From: Bacteroidota bacterium
GTDB taxonomy: Bacteria; Bacteroidota; Bacteroidia; Flavobacteriales_D; Sanyastnellaceae
DNA: 42,976 nucleotides
Assembly: GCA_002746975.1 (NCBI GenBank)
Contig: NVXE01000002.1
Span: 77,100-120,075, forward strand
Direction of reading: 5' to 3'
Notes under the pieces: generated by a model
What the model was told of the DNA's origin: nothing
The model's database searches: none
Seen by the model: only the letters and a program-made list of their open reading frames with translations
Position numbers and translations under genes: made by a program
In this document: positions 15,801 to 25,217 of the stretch, one piece after another
Numbering within the stretch: the stretch's first letter is position 1
Layout: the number at the start of each line of letters is the position of its first letter

Positions 15801-18800
15801 TTAAGGACAGCTTCCTCCGAACAATACTAAAAAGCCCAAAAGATCTGCTGTGTTTATCATCATGTCTTGGTTTAAATCTCCTTGACAATTTGAAGAATTT
15901 AAACTGCACGTACCATCATCAATAGTTGCCAACGGGTCATATTCTGGTGAATTATGATACGTACAACCTGAACAAGAAGTGTAGTCACAACTACCGTCAT
16001 CCAGAAGTGCTACAGAACTGTAATTACAAGCAATTATACTCGTACAGCCTTGGCAGATAAAATAGTCACAACTTCCATCATCGCAACCAGCAGCAAAGTT
16101 GTAATTACAAGCAACAGGATCTGTACACCCAGGATACACACACAATCCATCATCGCAATGAGCATATATGTCGAAGTTGCATGCTAAAGGGTCCACACAT
16201 CCCTCAGTAGTCACGCCAAAACAAACCCCATTACAATTCAGATCCTCTGGAGGACAACAGTTACCTTCAACATCGGTTACATATGTGCCATCACACTCGC
16301 CGTTGCAATCAACAACCCCAGGCCCAAAACAAACGCCGTAACAATTCAGGTCTGAAGCTTGACAACATGTTCCATCAATATCTGTTACAGCATCTCCGAA
16401 ACAAACACCGTTGCAATCTAGGTCTGACACATCACAACAACTACCAAAAATGTCTGTCACCGCAGTACCGGAACAAACACCTAAGCAATCAATTTGCTCT
16501 GGTAAACAACAAGTACCTTCTATATCAAAAACTCCGTTCTCAAGTCCACAAAGCTCAGCTATTGGGGGGATATAGAAACACACGGTATTATCAAAACATG
16601 CTGCAAAAGAGTCATAATTACCTGCCTCTGGATCATTGCAACCAGGGAATGTACATGAGCCGTCTTCAATCACAGCACCTGTGAAGTTGCACGCATTTAT
16701 ATCCGTGCAACCTGTGCAACTAGCATCACCAACTACCAAAGTTGCTATTGTCACAGGTCCTTCTGCAACAGACCTGTAACCTGGGAAAACTGAGGTAGTG
16801 ACTTGACAATCATATTGCCACGAGAAGGCAGTATTCATGTAATACACACCAGAACTGAGAGGCGCATTAAAAGAATCACTAAAATTGAAGAGTCCATCCG
16901 CTTCTGTTATACATGCAGAATAGAGACCATCAAAACGAGCATAAGACTGAGTTAAGCAATTAGGACAGTCTGTGTAATTGTTGACACGACTCCCAGAGAT
17001 AATTACTGAAATATTTGCTCCAGGTTCAACATAAGCGACACTTCCTTGACCATTCAGATTCACCACATCGAAGGTCATTGTGCGACCCCATCCAGTTGCA
17101 AATATTGGGAAGTCTGTATTTGAAACATCGCTGATAAAACATCCTCCATAACTGTCACACGAAGGCAGGGAGCAGGAACCGTCATCGCAACCGGCATCCG
17201 GATTATAGTTGCATGCACTTGTATCAGTGCACCCCCCATATATGCAAGAGCCAACACTGCATCCAACCATGCCATCATAGTTGCAAGCCTCGGGATCATT
17301 GCAGCCGCCATTTTCGAAAAAACAAACGCCATCTTCACATCCTGCTAGAGAGTTGTAGTTGCAAGCAGTACAATCTGTGCATCCTGGATATATACAAGAG
17401 TCGTCTGAACATTCTGCAAGAGGATTAAAATTACAAGCTGTGCCGTCCACACACCCCCTTGGAATACAAGTTCCATCCTCACACCCAGCATTCTGATTAT
17501 AATTACATGCTGAATAGTCGGTGCAACCTGGATAATTACATGACCCATCGTCAAAATCAACTTCATTATTGTAATTACAAGCAATCTGATCGATGCACCC
17601 ACAGTCCTCGTCAACCACACCGTTCGCATTGTTATCAATACCATCACAAATATCAGGAAGACAGCCAATTATGTTGAGTGGAATAGGGGCAGGTAAACTC
17701 CCACCATAATTTCCAAAACAATTGAAAATAATTCCAGAATTGGATATCTGAAAATTGTTAACGATCGTGCCTTTGTTGTCCAACATACCACCAAAATGAT
17801 TTGATATTATAGCGCCACCATAGTTAATAATATCCCCTTCATTATCCAATATTCCACCAATTAAATTGTGAAACTGATAATAGTTATCCAAAAGTCCTCC
17901 TCCAAAAAAAATTTCAAAATTTCCAGAATTGTTGGTCGTCGCTCCTATCCCGTTGATATAATTATCGTAATTATATAAGGTACCTTGATTGTTGATGAAA
18001 TTAGAATTATTAATAATATCATTATTAGTTATGACACCGCCAACATTATTCTCTATGACCCCGTTTCCAACATTACGAATTGAGTTATTATTAACTATGG
18101 TTCCTCCATCCTTATTGTTCATTGTGGATCTATTTTTGATTACACCGAAAGTTCCAATAGTGACACTTCCAAAGTTGTCAAGAGTACCAAAATTATCAAG
18201 TATATCATAAACATATATGAATCCATAATTAGTGATACTAAAATGGCTTGATACATAGGAATTAATATATACAGAAAATTCGGCTGGTATAATCGCATTC
18301 TTGCCGTTTGTCGGAAGACCACAACTCCAGTTGCCAGAATTATTCCACAACGAGTCTTCAGCTCCTGTCCAGGTTGTTGTTTGGGAAAAAACACATGAAT
18401 TATCTCCACACAAAGCTAAGGGGTTGAAATTGCATGCGATTGCAATCGTACATCCATCTGACTCGTTGCAAGAACCGTCTTCGCATGTCGCTATAGAATT
18501 ATAGTTGCAGGCAGTCTCGCTCATGCAACCTTTCAATCCGGTACAAGAGCCATCATCACAAAGAGCTAATAAGTTAAAATTGCATGCGGAATCATCAGTA
18601 CAACCTAGATCTCCGTTGCAAGAACCATCATCGCAAACGGCATTAAAATTATAGTTGCATGCCAAGGGGTTGGTACAACCATCAGGAAGAATGCATGAGC
18701 CATCATCACAAGTGGCGCTAACATCATAATTACATGCTACAGGGTCAGTGCACGCAGAAATCCCAAATAAACAGGACAGGTCGTCACATCCAGCAGATAT

Positions 18801-20546
18801 GTCATAATTACATGCTGCTGGATCAGTGCATCCCTGAAATGCACATGAGCCATCATCAATAGTTACTAAAGAGTTATAATTACAAGCCAATTCATCAATA
18901 CATCCACAACCCTCATCAATTTCTCCATTTTCATTATTGTCCAAACCATCACAAATTTCTGGAAGGCAAGAAATGACATCCAGGGGAATGTTAAAGGGAA
19001 GTACTCCTTGATAGGAACCAAAGCAATTGTAAATAGTTCCATAATTATTTATTGTGGAACTGACTAAATTCATTATAAGTCCGGAATTATTAATGATTCC
19101 ATTGACTTGATTATCCAAGGATGAGCTATTCCATATTTTAAAAGTTCCAGATATAACATCAATGTTTCCATTATTGAATAAGATCCCTCCTAGGGATATT
19201 TCAAAATATAATTCGGTGGATATTGAACCTTCATTGTTGAAGATAGCACCATATTTAGTATAAGTTCTTCCCGCTGACAGATTACTATATGTTCCGTAAT
19301 TATCAAAGGTACTTTCTCCTCCAAAATTATCTATTACTCCATAATTAGTTATGTTTCCATTACTGTAAATACTGCCGCCAAAATTATTTATTTCAGCAAT
19401 ATAATTATTATTGATGTTACCAGTTGCCGAGTTTGTAATACCTCCCCCAGTGCCATTGAAAATTTCTGTTAGACCAATAATTCCGTTGGTAATGACACCA
19501 TCATTGATCAAATCACCTTGAGAATTATCAATTATAGTTACATCATAATCTGAATAAATGTTTATGATTTCGCCACTTATATTATTAGTAATAATTCCAT
19601 TCACATTAGTGATCGATTCATAATTTGAGATGATTCCCGAGTTTGATAAATTTCCTGAGTTACTAATAGAACCTTCAGAGTTATTATTAATTTGTCCATC
19701 AACATCATTGACAATGTTTCCATTATCGTTATGGATGAGTCCATAGTTGCTAAAGATTCCGGTGCTTTTATTATGAAGTATACCGCCATATACTATTCCA
19801 AAAACACCTAGATTATTTGTGTTTGCAAAGTTATTGAATATACCAATGTTGTTAACTGTGAAGGTTCCTTCAATTTGGTTGTAAAAAGTAGCCCCAATTT
19901 GATTATTAAATATACCATTATTAGTAATTACGCCTCCAAGTTCGTTGTTGAAGACACCTCCAAGTTCGTTGTTGAAGACACCACTATATGGGAATGATGG
20001 GGCGCCCTGCCCTACGAGAAGAATATTCCCATAATTTGATATAATCCCACTATTATTAATCCCGGTCATTCCATTATTAGCGAATATACTTCCATCATAA
20101 TTATGAATCTCCCCTGAATTGTGATTAACAATTATGCCTCCAACATTATTGGTGATTTCCCCCCAATTCCTAATATGATTGAAGTTGTCTAATACACCGT
20201 TGGATTTATTGATAATTGTCCCACCGTCATTATATATATATCCATTGTTTAAAATGAGCCCTTCGTTATAAATAGTTACATTAATTATACTGGAATTAAT
20301 CGTTCCCATATTGTTAAAGGTTCCAAAATTTTGAATATTGTAACTAATTGTGAGAGTATCATTAAGAACAACAGTAAGTCCGTATGGAATGGTCGCATCA
20401 TTGCCATTTGCTGGCAATCCATAGTCCCAGTTCATAGGATCATACCAATCTTCGCTATTAAGACCTGTGAAAGTTGTTTGAGACAGTACGTAGCTTGAAG
20501 TAAGACAAAGCAATGCAAGCAGAATTAAAAAGTTTAGATTTTTCAT
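15801..20546 (-). CDS. Giant secreted Asn/Cys-rich repeat protein with internal duplication and dockerin-like tail
   Basis: The ATG at 20546 opens a signal peptide (MKNLNFLILLALLCLTSSYVLSQ); 1581 residues in all. Order of parts: a W-x-N-W / GLP.NG.DATIP entry module; a long Asn-Gly-rich tract (about residues 50-510) with NNxGxIxN periodicity, likely a beta-solenoid; a MopE-like ICDGLDNNENGEIDEGCGC unit (near 535); then GC-x-D-x-ACNY-x5-CDDGSC repeats to about 720. A second copy of the whole set follows (TTWTGAEDSLWNNSGNW at about 722, Asn-rich tract, ICDGIDNNANGVVDEDCGC near 970, more ACNY repeats). Next come a unique beta-rich domain (about 1135-1270), LDCNGVCFG repeats (about 1350-1450), further ACNY units and the dockerin-like tail CQGDLNQDMMINTADLLGFLVLFGG. 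Likely a surface adhesin or structural protein; there is no classical T9SS A/B tail. Confidence 0.85.
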   Translation of the reverse strand: MKNLNFLILLALLCLTSSYVLSQTTFTGLNSEDWYDPMNWDYGLPANGNDATIPYGLTVVLNDTLTISYNIQNFGTFNNMGTINSSIINVTIYNEGLILNNGYIYNDGGTIINKSNGVLDNFNHIRNWGEITNNVGGIIVNHNSGEIHNYDGSIFANNGMTGINNSGIISNYGNILLVGQGAPSFPYSGVFNNELGGVFNNELGGVITNNGIFNNQIGATFYNQIEGTFTVNNIGIFNNFANTNNLGVFGIVYGGILHNKSTGIFSNYGLIHNDNGNIVNDVDGQINNNSEGSISNSGNLSNSGIISNYESITNVNGIITNNISGEIINIYSDYDVTIIDNSQGDLINDGVITNGIIGLTEIFNGTGGGITNSATGNINNNYIAEINNFGGSIYSNGNITNYGVIDNFGGESTFDNYGTYSNLSAGRTYTKYGAIFNNEGSISTELYFEISLGGILFNNGNIDVISGTFKIWNSSSLDNQVNGIINNSGLIMNLVSSTINNYGTIYNCFGSYQGVLPFNIPLDVISCLPEICDGLDNNENGEIDEGCGCIDELACNYNSLVTIDDGSCAFQGCTDPAACNYDISAGCDDLSCLFGISACTDPVACNYDVSATCDDGSCILPDGCTNPLACNYNFNAVCDDGSCNGDLGCTDDSACNFNLLALCDDGSCTGLKGCMSETACNYNSIATCEDGSCNESDGCTIAIACNFNPLALCGDNSCVFSQTTTWTGAEDSLWNNSGNWSCGLPTNGKNAIIPAEFSVYINSYVSSHFSITNYGFIYVYDILDNFGTLDNFGSVTIGTFGVIKNRSTMNNKDGGTIVNNNSIRNVGNGVIENNVGGVITNNDIINNSNFINNQGTLYNYDNYINGIGATTNNSGNFEIFFGGGLLDNYYQFHNLIGGILDNEGDIINYGGAIISNHFGGMLDNKGTIVNNFQISNSGIIFNCFGNYGGSLPAPIPLNIIGCLPDICDGIDNNANGVVDEDCGCIDQIACNYNNEVDFDDGSCNYPGCTDYSACNYNQNAGCEDGTCIPRGCVDGTACNFNPLAECSDDSCIYPGCTDCTACNYNSLAGCEDGVCFFENGGCNDPEACNYDGMVGCSVGSCIYGGCTDTSACNYNPDAGCDDGSCSLPSCDSYGGCFISDVSNTDFPIFATGWGRTMTFDVVNLNGQGSVAYVEPGANISVIISGSRVNNYTDCPNCLTQSYARFDGLYSACITEADGLFNFSDSFNAPLSSGVYYMNTAFSWQYDCQVTTSVFPGYRSVAEGPVTIATLVVGDASCTGCTDINACNFTGAVIEDGSCTFPGCNDPEAGNYDSFAACFDNTVCFYIPPIAELCGLENGVFDIEGTCCLPEQIDCLGVCSGTAVTDIFGSCCDVSDLDCNGVCFGDAVTDIDGTCCQASDLNCYGVCFGPGVVDCNGECDGTYVTDVEGNCCPPEDLNCNGVCFGVTTEGCVDPLACNFDIYAHCDDGLCVYPGCTDPVACNYNFAAGCDDGSCDYFICQGCTSIIACNYSSVALLDDGSCDYTSCSGCTYHNSPEYDPLATIDDGTCSLNSSNCQGDLNQDMMINTADLLGFLVLFGGSCP

Positions 20547-20552
20547 TATCAA

Positions 20553-20975: not shown

Positions 20976-21819
20976 TCATGCGGCTATTGTTTTGTAATTA
21001 ATTTCTAATTCGAGCTCATTGATTGTTTTGTGATTTAAGGCGGAATGTCTTCGGTTTCTATTATACCAGGTTTCTATCCACTTAAAAATCGATATTTCGG
21101 CATCAGAATACACCTCGTAATGCTTTTTATAGACCCATTCTGCCTTCAGGCTTTTGAAAAAACTTTCTGCAACAGCATTGTCCCAACAATTACCTTTTCT
21201 TGACATACTTTGTTTCACATACTTCTTGTGGCTTTTTAGAATCTTCCTGAAAGCTAAGCTTGCGTACTGCGAACCTCTGTCAGAGTGGAAAGTAAAAGCC
21301 TTGCAGATGGGCCTATTGTCTACGGCCGCATTCCAAGCTTTAATTATCGTGTTTTCAGTAGTTAAATCTTCACTCAAAGACCACCCAATAACCTTGCTGT
21401 CAAATAAGTCAATGATTACTGTTAGATAAACCCATCCTCTTGTGGTTTCTATGTATGTGATGTCTGAAACCCAAACCTGATTGAGACTATCTACTGAGAA
21501 ATTTTGATTTAATAGGTTGGGTGATATTGGATAATTATGATTGGAATCTGCCTGTGTTCTTGAACTTCCGCTTTCATTATTCTAGCCGTTCGGGGTCTAG
21601 AAACCTTGTATCCACGTTTTTCCAGTTCTACCTTCATTCTAGGTGAGCCATAACTTTGATGGCTTTCTTCGAAAATATTCTCGATAAGATTAATGACTTT
21701 TCTAGTCTCTAACATCGATTTGATGGGCCAGAACGTAACCAATTATAGTAACCACTTTTACTCACTTCGAGCACTTTTGACATCAACTCAACAGGATATT
21801 TTAATTTATGTTGTTTCAT
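20976..21819 (-). pseudogene. IS3-family transposase OrfB (rve/DDE integrase domain), frameshifted
   Basis: Reading from the ATG at 21819, the product begins MKQHKLKYPVELMSKVLEV and SGYYNWLRSGPS, then hits a break near 21715. It resumes in another frame as IFEESHQSYGSPRMKVELEKRGYKVSRPRTARIMK (21742 to about 21573), then shifts at least twice between 21580 and 21550. It continues as DSNHNYPISPNLL, VWVSDITYIETTRGWVYLTVIIDLF and the C-terminal part with FHSDRGSQYAS and NAVAESFFKSLK, ending at 20976. The DDE residues (Asp in VSDITY, Asp in HSDRG, Glu in VAESF) are all still encoded, but the gene cannot give one protein without several corrections. In an intact element it would be made by -1 frameshifting from orfA. 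Confidence 0.85.
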
Positions 21820-21830
21820 AAATTAGAATT

Positions 21831-22129
21831 TTAGCTGTCGTTCGCGGAGAAGATGCCTATCGCTTTTTTTAATATCTACGTTCCAAGTTTTGCCTCTCGT
21901 AACTCTTTCTTTAATCTAGCTATCTCACGACCTTCATCGGTAAGTTTAGCTTTTCCATGACCTGGAAAGCTATTATGCTTAAACTCGTCCTGTTCTTTTT
22001 TCCAGCGATGGATCAATTGCGAGCCAATACACAGCTCCCTGGCTACTTTTGCTACATTACCTTTTCTGCAGACAACTTCACAGCATTGCGTTTATAGTCA
22101 GCAGAGTAAATTCTTTTCTTTTTTGACAT
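21831..22129 (-). pseudogene. IS3-family OrfA (helix-turn-helix), frameshifted
   Basis: From the ATG at 22129 the product reads MSKKKRIYSADYKRNAVKLSAEK, then a frameshift near 22065. It resumes as VAKVARELCIGSQLIHRWKKEQ (the HTH region) and EGREIARLKKELREAKL (leucine-zipper-like), with a second frameshift before ILKKAIGIFSAND and a TAA at 21831-21833. This is the usual OrfA layout of IS3/IS150 elements (HTH_Tnp_1), about 98 residues before decay. The stop lies just before the orfB start. Confidence 0.8.
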
Positions 22130-22284
22130 ATTGATAAGTTCATTCTTAGCAACAATATATTAACTCACTGTCCATTCTAGTGTAGCATGTCCACGACTAG
22201 TTAAAAGGCAAAGTTCGAACCCATAGAATAAATTCATTATTTGCTCCAATCCCAGAGCTAATAAGGTTTTTGAAGAGCATAAAA

Positions 22285-22320: not shown

Positions 22321-22324
22321 AGTG

Positions 22325-22398
22325 TGACCCTGTAGGGATTCGAACCCCAAACCTTCGCATCCGTAATGCGATGCTCTATCCAGTTGAGCTACAAGGCC
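22325..22398 (-). tRNA. tRNA-Arg, anticodon ACG
   Basis: A full 74-nt cloverleaf folds on the minus strand. The acceptor arms GGCCTTG and CAGGGTC pair with G-U wobbles; the D arm is GCTC...GAGC. The anticodon stem TCGCA/TGCGA is perfect around loop TTACGGA, giving anticodon ACG (read as ICG for CGU/CGC/CGA arginine codons). The T arm has GGTTCGAAT. CCA is not encoded: CAC follows the discriminator A. A strong terminator follows at once, and the gene appears monocistronic. It lies between a decayed IS and a 1.25-kb gene-free stretch, consistent with tRNA genes being integration hot spots. Confidence 0.95.
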
Positions 22399-22520
22399 AT
22401 TTCAATCCATTTGTAAATTAAACTAGGCACAAACGGACGGCAAAGATACTCAGGTTCTTGCGAGCAGCAAGTTTTGATAGAGTTTTTTCTTTATTATTCG
22501 GATTTACTACAAATAAGAAA

Positions 22521-22898
22521 TCCGCACCGGTGGCTAGGAGTAAAAGTAGAAACTTTATACCTAAACAATCACCGATGCGGATCCTCCAGGCTCCTATACC
22601 TGAACCGGTTAGGAGCGCCTTCGAGGGGCCAGGGCATAAAGCCCTAGCTACTCTCCGGTCCGATCAATTTTGATGTAATCTTAATCGAACGGCTGGCATC
22701 CTTAGGGATTTAATTCCATGTGTCTTGCGACTCAGCTGTATCCTCAAGCACTTTCGTTATGTTGAGGGAACCTCTACAAAACGATGGCATATCGGAGCCG
22801 TTACCATGCAACATTGTTGCGGATACACGGGATCAATACCCTACGGAAAACTGAGGCTTGCCTTATTTAGCTTCTCTCAGTGTTTGCGAAGCTTTCGC
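22521..22898. ncRNA. Candidate structured RNA or degenerate mobile-element core (strand unknown)
   Basis: A run of consecutive hairpins is visible by eye. (1) TCCGCACCGGTG (22521-22532) pairs with CACCGATGCGGA (22570-22581), 11 of 12, enclosing GTAAAAGT/ACTTTATAC (22540-22560, one bulge). (2) CTCCTA (22591-22596) pairs with TAGGAG (22610-22615), extended by ACC/GGT inside. (3) GCGCCTTCGAGGGGC at 22615-22629. (4) AGGGC-ATAAA-GCCCT at 22631-22645. (5) GCAAC-ATT-GTTGC near 22808-22820. (6) ACTGAG (22850-22855) with CTCAGT (22876-22881). (7) GCGAA-GCT-TTCGC at 22886-22898. Such density in non-coding sequence suggests a large structured RNA, but no known family was recognised and covariation cannot be tested here. 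Confidence 0.35.
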
Positions 22899-23589
22899 TT
22901 GCGCTATTCGGACGATAGTTTGCTTAGAACTCGGTGAAGAAAATAGAATCTAAATAATATAAATCCTTCTTTGCTTTCCTAAGTTTTACTGATGATGAGA
23001 CAAGCTCTTCTTCAGCGCATACTCTGCTTTCGTCATGTTAAATCTAATAAACTCGATTGAAAACAATTAAACACGCTAGGCGTTTATTTGCTAACTCGCT
23101 ACTTATTTGACAACTTTGATGATGGCAATGCCTTCACGTTAGTTGTAAACGATGATTAAGAATCTTACAAGACTAAATCTTCATCCATTCAACACGCTTC
23201 TCAATTAGTTAAAACTATTTGGTCCTAAAACCTCAAAGTTTGATTCCTTTCGAAATCTGACCATTCTCAGGCCCTAACGCATATCAAAACCGAACTCCCA
23301 TCTGCCTTTGCAGAAGGGTTAGCAATCTAAACCTCAATCGGTCTAGGGTCGGGGTTAAAGATTCATTTCTGAAACTCTTTCCTTTTTGTAACTTCTGTTT
23401 TTTCCTCTCGAAATCAACTCCCTTTCGGGACCCCTTTCACCTTTCGGATACCTTTTAAACAATCAGAATCAATAAATTGAACCTTCATAATTTAAATCGC
23501 TTTGGGGGTTTAGTCGCATTGCTTGAAGCAAATAAGCAACTATTTTCATATGCAAGTCAAATAAAAAAGTACAAAGGAGTTAACAAGAG

Positions 23590-23618
23590 ACTAACAATCA
23601 TTATTCACAATTGTTAGT
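23590..23618. repeat. Inverted repeat with a DnaA-box-like loop, downstream of the methyltransferase gene
   Basis: ACTAACAAT and ATTGTTAGT form a perfect 9-bp stem; the loop includes TTATTCACA (23601-23609), matching the DnaA-box consensus TTATnCACA. It is 37 bp after the methyltransferase stop on the minus strand, so a terminator-like role without a strong U tract is the simplest reading. A single box does not make an origin. Confidence 0.45.
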
Positions 23619-23654
23619 CCAACATCTCAACACACTTATTTGACAATGAAAGGA

Positions 23655-25217
23655 TTACGCTTTAAAGTAACGAATACTGACTGTAGCGGGCAGTTCGCTG
23701 GGAAAAGTTCGCGAACATGACTCTTCTATAGTTAGACCTGCTTCTGCAGCCATTGCATCAAAGACGGGTATCTCGACAATGTATTGATCTGCAAATCCGT
23801 GGGTAGCGTCGTAGGCTGTTGCTGGCATAATACCTTGGCGCTCCGCAGCTTCTTCTGGAGAAATGGTGTGTAGTTCTACAACTAATAGTCCGTGTTGTGC
23901 TACATAAGGAGACCATCTTAAAAAGTGCTCCTTTAAGCTTTGTTCTACATTCCGCAATTTTAAGCGTTCACCCCGAAAAGCAAAAGCACCAGTTGAAGTA
24001 GCTCGTTCAGGTCTGTCTATAATAGGTCTATTATACACTCGATTATGATCTAAGAATGAACGAACGCTCATAAGATCTCCTAATCTAATCTTGTGGTGTG
24101 TCCACAAATCAAGAGCCAACTGATCTGGATCACCTATATCACCCCAAATAAAATGCCCATCAACTCCCTCCTGCCTGAAATGATCAGCCGTTGCTACAAG
24201 AGCTTCGTGATTAAAGTCAGCTCCTACTAGCTCTAGTGGATGAGTATCTAGGTGTTTACCTCTAAGAGTAGATGATTTTATCACTTCAAACAAATGAAGT
24301 AATAAGGCTCCGTTACCACATCCCATATCACATATTCCTACTGGCTGTTCTTCTAAAGGTGCATTGAACACAGTCTTTATGACCTCGTCTAAGTGACTGA
24401 AGTATGCTTGGTGAGCCCCACCAGAACCCCATACATTTAGAGTTCTATCAACATGTACTTCTGGCTCGCCGGGTTCTGTACGCCATAGATATGAACCGTC
24501 GCCAAAGATGAGTTCACGCGTCCAAATAAAAGTTCTTGTATAAGAAGTTGTTACGCCATAAGCCGAAGATCTCTTTAAAAAGAAAGCTCCCTCTTCTGTT
24601 CTATCCCACCCAAGTAGTTGTAAAACTTTACCCCACGACTCTTGCTTGGACTCATCCATTTTTAAAACCGCAATATCATGTTCTTCCCAAGTTGAAATAG
24701 GCTTGTTTCCGTGAATTGTTCCTAGAGCGACTAACCAGGGAGAGACTAGCGCTCCTTCTAGATGGTTCTTTATTCTGCCCATAATACCTTCATTTGGCAT
24801 ATCAGACCAAGCATCCATTAAAACCTCCATGGCCATAATAGCCTCTGAAGTAATAGGCGCCTCGGGAGTATTCCACGAATTTACTGAAAGCTCTAACCAA
24901 GCTCTACCAGGTGCATATGCAGTACTATGCCTATACCAATCTGTAGGCGTCTTACCTACTGCAGGTCTGTAATTAATTCTATCTTCTGCCCTTACAGCTT
25001 CTAATAAACCTTGAGAACACAGCATCCTAAGAGCAACATTCAAATAACCTGAATTAGCTCGGTATTCTCCTGCTAATTCATCTACATCACCCGAAGTTCT
25101 GAAAACTCTTTCAAGAAGTCCCCACTCTTCAAGAACAGGAATGACCCCACACATAGCAAGTCCATCAAGATGATGAAAGAGTCTTTTTCTTAAAATACGT
25201 TTTTCAGATTTATCCAT
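23655..25217 (-). CDS. Class I SAM-dependent methyltransferase, possibly AprA-type (winged-helix + MT)
   Basis: This 520-residue soluble protein has an N-terminal region (1-90) with HHLDGLAMCGVIPVLEEWGLLERVF and a winged-helix-like SGYLNVALRMLCSQGLLEAV, a linker and middle domain (about 90-280), and a Rossmann methyltransferase domain whose motif I is GICDMGCGNGALLLHLFE (DMGCGNG at residues 297-303). VGADFNHEAL gives the motif II acidic residue, and HFIWGDIGDPDQL gives motif III. The order (winged helix first) resembles O-methyltransferases and polyketide-associated AprA-like methyltransferases. No PKS/NRPS genes are near. It lies 14 bp downstream of the C1 peptidase gene, likely an operon. 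Substrate unknown. Confidence 0.75.
   Translation of the reverse strand: MDKSEKRILRKRLFHHLDGLAMCGVIPVLEEWGLLERVFRTSGDVDELAGEYRANSGYLNVALRMLCSQGLLEAVRAEDRINYRPAVGKTPTDWYRHSTAYAPGRAWLELSVNSWNTPEAPITSEAIMAMEVLMDAWSDMPNEGIMGRIKNHLEGALVSPWLVALGTIHGNKPISTWEEHDIAVLKMDESKQESWGKVLQLLGWDRTEEGAFFLKRSSAYGVTTSYTRTFIWTRELIFGDGSYLWRTEPGEPEVHVDRTLNVWGSGGAHQAYFSHLDEVIKTVFNAPLEEQPVGICDMGCGNGALLLHLFEVIKSSTLRGKHLDTHPLELVGADFNHEALVATADHFRQEGVDGHFIWGDIGDPDQLALDLWTHHKIRLGDLMSVRSFLDHNRVYNRPIIDRPERATSTGAFAFRGERLKLRNVEQSLKEHFLRWSPYVAQHGLLVVELHTISPEEAAERQGIMPATAYDATHGFADQYIVEIPVFDAMAAEAGLTIEESCSRTFPSELPATVSIRYFKA

Follow-up and report, generated by a model that had tools for sequence, protein, structure and literature searches.

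A probable large ornate RNA gene, preceded by a DnaA-box-like array, on chromosomal contigs of marine Bacteroidota

What lies in 1.25 kb of DNA that adjoins a tRNA and appears to hold no gene? The question is posed by positions 22399-23654 of the window, that is, of the whole 42,976-nt stretch of bacterial DNA that was analyzed, where an initial annotation had described a gene desert with a cluster of hairpins and proposed a large structured RNA. The absence of a credible gene is borne out: the longest stop-to-stop piece has 87 codons, a length reached by 37% of 300 shuffles, and a Pfam scan of the six longest of the eight such pieces in the interval gave a best E of 0.14, under the cut-off of the family concerned. 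The adjoining tRNA is a tRNA-Arg (anticodon ACG) at 22324-22398 on the minus strand. The G+C content, suspected to be higher than in the flanks, is 0.46-0.50 in 200-base windows within 22500-22900 vs about 0.36-0.41 in the closest flanking windows. Inverted repeats are dense, with 14 pairs over the whole interval, and the nested stem that had been noticed is present at 22520-22532/22570-22582 (13 nt, 92% complementary, with a second stem inside). The original observation is thus real and understated: the element is longer than 22520-22900, and its functional strand is likely the minus strand.

The answer that we hold with good confidence is that the minus strand of 22511-23522 encodes, as a gene in its own right with a promoter and a terminator, a long noncoding RNA that is highly structured and belongs to a new large ornate family. 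Comparison of sequences shows conservation in one genus and three further genera, a secondary structure maintained through compensatory changes, no protein signal, no match to a known RNA family, and a conserved array of DnaA-box-like repeats upstream. The parts of the locus are as follows, all on the minus strand.

22511..23522, read from 23522 to 22511: predicted long structured noncoding RNA gene, ~1,012 nt (11-copy genus alignment, covariation and alifold; 5' end placed from promoter spacing)
22511..22914: 3' portion of the RNA, richer in G+C, which the initial annotation saw (G+C and fold; query positions 67-470 matched in G001, G002 and G011)
22511..22584: long 3'-terminal hairpin and T-rich tail, probable intrinsic terminator (helix 28: 14 pairs, 3 with double changes)
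22591..22615: hairpin whose stem covaries (CTCC/GGAG, CTTC/GAAG, CCCC/GGGG), with a constant core, CCGGTTCAGGT, in 11/11 copies of the window's genus (g1)
23257..23273: CCTGA(G/A)AATGG hairpin (motif 23261-23271), exact in 10/11 g1 copies and 7/10 aligned copies of genus g11
23525..23538: -7-like promoter box TTATTTG, from its sequence against the Bacteroidota consensus TAnnTTTG
23552..23564: possible -33 region, TTTGAC/TTTGAT or CTTGAC in g1 copies
23582..23614: array of three DnaA-box-like repeats, ACAATTGT-N12-GT-N8-TGT, upstream of the promoter and separated from it by a nearly constant spacing
22434..22451: putative separate promoter of the downstream tRNA-Arg, with a TATCTTTG box in 12/12 aligned copies
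22324..22398: tRNA-Arg (ACG), downstream neighbour of the RNA

Where does this gene begin and end? In the 11 g1 copies the entire intergenic region is conserved (1 kb upstream was aligned); it stretches from where the AprA-like methyltransferase gene ends as far as the terminal hairpin. That hairpin, at 22511..22584, is the most conserved part of the RNA family. Copy length is 793-1,036 nt in g1 and 726-736 nt in the aligned g11 copies. The CCTGA(G/A)AATGG hairpin is also present in g5 copies and was not found in those of g3; its loop fits the T-loop pattern, a motif commonly engaged in tertiary contacts. A scan for promoters and terminators gave nothing relevant, one site of each kind and no more than in shuffles. 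Bacteroidota promoters do not follow the sigma-70 pattern used in the scan. The terminal hairpin, which the scan did not report, has a loop above its 8-base limit. The flavobacterial -7 consensus is TAnnTTTG in the consulted part of PMC9723704.

Does the region fold as an RNA would? The stretch 22500-22920 folds better than chance on both strands (z -6.7 for minus, -4.5 for plus; 0/100 shuffles as good on either). The initial annotation had placed the structure in the first 400 bp (22520-22900); folding there is confirmed, but it is not confined to that part, since 22920-23522 also folds (minus strand z -3.3; 0/20 shuffles as good) and has conserved covarying helices. Two full-length alignments were used for covariation: A3, with the 11 g1 copies, and A2, with 10 of the 13 g11 copies, omitting one cut by a contig end (L063) and two that are very divergent (L126 and L127). 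With RNAalifold, A3 gives 125 consensus pairs, 45 of them with double compensatory changes vs 23.3 expected by shuffling, and A2 gives 180, 88 of them with such changes vs 50.7 expected. Paired cells amount to 96.3% in A3 (88.1% shuffled, 33-51% slid) and 95.0% in A2 (84.0% shuffled, 32-45% slid), and the covariation score is 0.323 (shuffled 0.169) and 0.418 (shuffled 0.205), respectively. All of these values are reached by 0/500 shuffles; the weakest of the five measures, further pair types, is reached by 3/500 for A3 and 4/500 for A2. RNAalifold derived the structures from the very alignments used for the pair counts, a bias in their favour, and relatedness is not preserved in the shuffles; even so, the structures exceed the slid and shuffled controls by a very large margin. 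Across an RNA of about 0.7-1.0 kb there are 28-38 consensus helices.

The strand can be read from the same data. Against 40 column-shuffled alignments each, A3 has an alifold z of -15.2 for the predicted and -10.5 for the opposite strand, and A2 of -18.1 and -13.9; the opposite strand, too, thus folds much better than chance. In A3, 125 pairs are obtained on the predicted strand, with 158 G-U vs 10 A-C cells, and 84 pairs on the opposite strand. The corresponding values for A2 are 180 pairs, 129 G-U vs 30 A-C cells, and 182 pairs. Because the opposite strand of A2 gives equally many pairs, the strand preference is clear for A3 and modest for A2.

Who carries this RNA? A BLAST search with 22480-22980 against 60 genomes, own included, found matches with E<1e-10 in 11 of the 59 others: 10 of the 13 same-genus relatives, and one genome (G034) of another genus. 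A covariance model of the 3' 120 nt of the RNA (R1), built from 12 copies with that of the window among them, matched 37/114 genomes of the family at E<=0.1, own included; one (G021) was judged false, leaving 36, namely 11 in g1, 8 in g3, 4 in g5 and 13 in g11. Six further g5 genomes missed by R1 (G093, G096, G098, G099, G104 and G110) have the array and then, 241-332 bases on, the CCTGAGAATGG motif, so that the family total counted by array and motif as well is at least 42/114. The RNA is not universal in the family as far as seen, because R1 shows no copy in 3/14 g1 genomes (63-82% complete) and in most other genera. Homologues beyond the genome itself and strong covariation in full-length alignments with shuffle controls, both named by the initial annotation as tests of a large structured RNA, are therefore found, with no sign of a protein and no Rfam family, and the proposal is upheld.

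A number of candidate matches were discarded. In a 299-genome draw of the order, R1 matched G037, G041, G222 and G240, all judged false: in the first three, as in G021, the 3' hairpin is missing, and in G240 the hairpin and T-run are present and the remainder is missing. An exact pattern of the terminal hairpin matched 37 stretches in named genomes, 26 of them Flavobacteriales, Crocinitomicaceae or Bacteroidetes and one labelled Euryarchaeota. Ten matches outside the order were rejected, nine of them scoring E>1 or absent on rescoring with R1. In Prevotella koreensis (L076), an R1 match with E 1e-5, on both strands and without the array in 8 kb, was judged to be a terminator stem alone. The pattern had no match in viral contigs. 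The carriers are related marine bacteria, and the RNA lies on their chromosomal contigs.

Another question concerns the surroundings of the gene. In all 11 g1 copies it is flanked by the methyltransferase-like gene and tRNA-Arg(ACG), with the RNA upstream of the tRNA, and in the 12 copies found by BLAST, window included, the tRNA-Arg follows directly downstream on the same strand. In g3, the tRNA-Arg is downstream in 5/7 copies with enough flank; in the other two (L053 and L056, from G115 and G119) there is no tRNA-Arg in the 1.5 kb downstream flank, and the RNA occupies another site than in the rest of the g3 copies, so that the surroundings vary within one genus. ARAGORN found no tRNA in the flanks of eleven g5/g11 loci, where the flanking genes, judged by eye, look different from those of g1. 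As the flanking genes change between and within genera, a cis-acting leader is unlikely, and the locus is best read as encoding a folded RNA that acts in trans.

Some observations were made on the neighbours themselves. The gene at 23655-25217 (minus strand) encodes an AprA-like methyltransferase with AprA_N, WH_AprA and AprA MT2-like domains, and several g3 loci also appear by eye to have a gene with a similar ending upstream of the RNA. Beyond the tRNA-Arg is a decayed IS3-type transposase at 20976-22130 (rve domain in a 133-aa ORF at 20976-21377, the rest by eye), which seems unrelated to the RNA. The ORF at 15801-20552 (minus strand, 1,583 aa) has no Pfam match at E<=0.001.

What, then, is the array upstream of the promoter? 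The DnaA box has the consensus TGTGGATAA, and each of the three repeats resembles it. A shorter exact form of the array occurs once in the genome itself. In 31/37 R1 genomes the exact array is on the same contig as the R1 match, 567-1071 bases away (within 1.3 kb); of the remaining ones, G112 and G132 have it on another contig, G008, G103 and G128 are without an exact match, and G021 is the false match. Across the order, the array is found in 58/399 genomes, 47 in the family of the window and 11 in other families, and it occurs exactly once in 57 of these 58, the exception being G126 with two. A reversed control pattern gave zero matches in the same 399 genomes. A class-wide draw had it in 9/395 genomes, namely the genome itself and eight that do not belong to the order. 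By itself the array does not prove that the RNA is present, because the background of 8/380 is not far below the 11/285 in the other families of the order. The layout of array, promoter and RNA is similar across the tabulated copies.

Arrays were also seen elsewhere. Four loci from other orders of the class (L186, L190, L191 and L193) have single DnaA-box-like triple arrays. In genera g16, g9 and g13 (L147-L150), the array lies by eye some 250-500 bases before a queE-like gene; in g9 the spacer between the two is 325 nt long, ends in GGATTTTTTATTT and folds with z -4.9, and the g9 pair has no compensatory change.

What follows the array in the 11 loci of other families? In eight it is an ORF-poor region (L141-L145 in family f3, L138 and L139 in f4, L140 in f5); in L135 and L136 reading frames follow, and in L137 a frame starts and is then truncated by the contig end. 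The f3 and f4 loci with a visible end have a common TACTGTTT end motif after a hairpin. With 30 shuffles in each case, the three f3 copies of genus g42 give alifold z -8.6 (predicted strand) and -3.7 (opposite strand), and 29/120 of their pairs are compensatory; two f4 copies give -7.3 and -6.6, with 32/96; and the five f3 and f4 copies together have 41/80 pairs compensatory and no strand preference, because z is -8.6 vs -8.4. To judge from their sequences, the f3 and f4 regions resemble structured RNAs preceded by a promoter of the same type. No sequence match between the regions of other families and the RNA of the window was seen, except for the array and its spacing. The f5 locus (L140, in G051) has two tandem, clearly similar ORF-poor copies, the first alone being directly behind an exact array. 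Two sets of g5 sequences were set aside: g5a comprises three distinct genomes (L061 and L158 are both from G108, L068 and L156 both from G101) and is not counted as evidence, and g5b has one sequence with an end and was left unfolded.

Could the region be something else? The main alternative of the initial annotation, a decayed mobile element, or else a broken protein gene beside the tRNA, has in its favour the decayed IS3-type transposase just beyond the tRNA (20976 to about 22130); against it, the region is without coding signal and has no match in phage and plasmid records. Moreover, conservation over the whole length at the same site in 11 genus copies, together with compensatory changes, is the opposite of decay, so that this alternative finds no support and is almost certainly wrong. 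Another possibility is that the region acts as DNA, either as a replication origin or as a protein-binding site whose hairpins form in single-stranded DNA. The resemblance of the array to three DnaA boxes, occurring exactly once in 57/58 array-bearing genomes of the order, speaks for this, as does the opposite strand of A2, which folds nearly as well. However, the covariation extends about 1 kb past the array, A3 favours one strand (G-U vs A-C cells 158 to 10), and promoter-like and terminator-like sequences flank the region. An origin in particular, as suggested by the array, was rejected: GC skew keeps its sign at the site in the contig of the window (C11) and around the array of the near-complete G090, and dnaA is on another contig; with no switch in skew, an origin is unlikely. 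Altogether, a role as DNA is highly improbable.

If the product is an RNA, is it one that is already known in another guise? Among the small ones, 6S RNA, which binds RNA polymerase, might exist here in a much enlarged form: the Rfam model finds no 6S RNA in the genome itself, and a promoter driven by the array could make the RNA growth-regulated. The missing match says little, because the model finds 6S RNA in 5/14 control genomes and misses the Bacteroides control. 6S RNA is about 180 nt and consists of one long bulged hairpin, whereas the RNA of the window has about 0.7-1.0 kb and 28-38 consensus helices, and we regard an enlarged 6S-type RNA as very unlikely. A slightly better, though still poor, prospect is a highly diverged GOLLD, ROOL, OLE, raiA or universal RNA that the Rfam models miss. 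Size and complexity are similar, and GOLLD and ROOL are often near tRNA islands in the consulted part of PMC12286853. Yet Rfam scans show no such family at the gathering score or at permissive E, the RNase P, tmRNA and SRP RNAs are found elsewhere in the genome, phages and plasmids give no match, and viral contigs lack the terminal-hairpin pattern.

The preferred reading, a stand-alone gene for a new structured RNA, suggests a sequence of events. Transcription would start at about 23522 and end after the terminal hairpin. The RNA may act in trans, given that the flanking genes change between and within genera, and its folded form could serve as a scaffold, by itself as an oligomer or together with proteins. 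Its level might be set by a factor that binds the upstream array, DnaA or a look-alike. Overall, its probable mode of action is in trans and through its fold, as for OLE, GOLLD and ROOL, and it is not detectably a member of any of these classes. A bolder and more doubtful idea is that one array-marked RNA gene extends across several Flavobacteriales families, its RNA changed almost beyond recognition, that DnaA or the cell cycle is coupled to its expression, and that its product is a large RNA or RNA-protein particle with a general job in the cell. The RNA behind the array has a length of 386-1,036 nt in the copies measured, and terminal hairpins differ between families. If this idea were true, the giant RNA would be evolving fast and coupled to replication, and no class described so far would resemble it.

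How does this RNA relate to those that are known? At the gathering score, tRNA alone matches in the locus and its relatives, and at permissive E no large-RNA family appears in the locus of the window (E<=5) or in 30 other loci (E<=1). Matches below threshold to mir-3931, mascRNA-menRNA, snoR110 and ST7-OT4_2 were put down to chance, as hairpin or tRNA look-alikes. The Rfam covariance models of GOLLD, ROOL and OLE do not match the RNA. No raiA match appeared in these scans either, which bears on raiA only if the Rfam set used holds a model of it. RNase P RNA, tmRNA and SRP RNA have copies of their own, over the cut-off, on other contigs of the genome. Literature searches and Rfam 15 yielded no description of the RNA, and annotation based on Rfam is blind to it.

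Its features are those of a large ornate RNA: over 500 nt, many covarying helices, and no ORF. The comparison with GOLLD and ROOL made by the initial annotation therefore holds for the kind of RNA, but not for membership. GOLLD, in the consulted part of PMC12286853, is often over 800 nt, very elaborate, and near tRNA genes, with a conserved 3' and a less conserved 5' region. The RNA described here is similarly large and elaborate, with a 3' part more conserved than the 5' part and a tRNA nearby. In contrast, GOLLD is carried by phages and prophages near tRNA islands, whereas this RNA lies on chromosomal contigs, with one tRNA in the window; its g1 copies are at one site with one tRNA-Arg, and it has no phage, plasmid or Rfam match. 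ROOL, from the same part of PMC12286853, is also large, ornate, without known protein partner and often near tRNAs, but it is a phage and prophage RNA, and its Rfam model does not find the RNA of the window. OLE is likewise a large structured bacterial RNA, of about 600 nt in the consulted part of PMC9723947, and differs in being a membrane-associated RNP of Gram-positive extremophiles or anaerobes, again with no Rfam match to the present RNA. The raiA-motif RNA (ModT) is likewise a structured RNA, widely conserved in bacteria; it is reported from Clostridioides difficile, Bacillota and others in the consulted part of PMC11706538.

Few bacterial RNA classes of such size and complexity are known, and the three large ones with recently solved structures are RNA-only assemblies, according to the consulted part of PMC12286853. 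The RNA of the window is a further candidate class, from marine bacteria, on chromosomal contigs instead of phages, and with a recognisable control element. This setting and this element make the role of giant bacterial RNAs testable, by deletion and through the link to DnaA-like control. On the sequence evidence, it would represent a new family of large ornate bacterial RNA whose chromosomal, array-marked setting sets it apart from the phage-borne ones.
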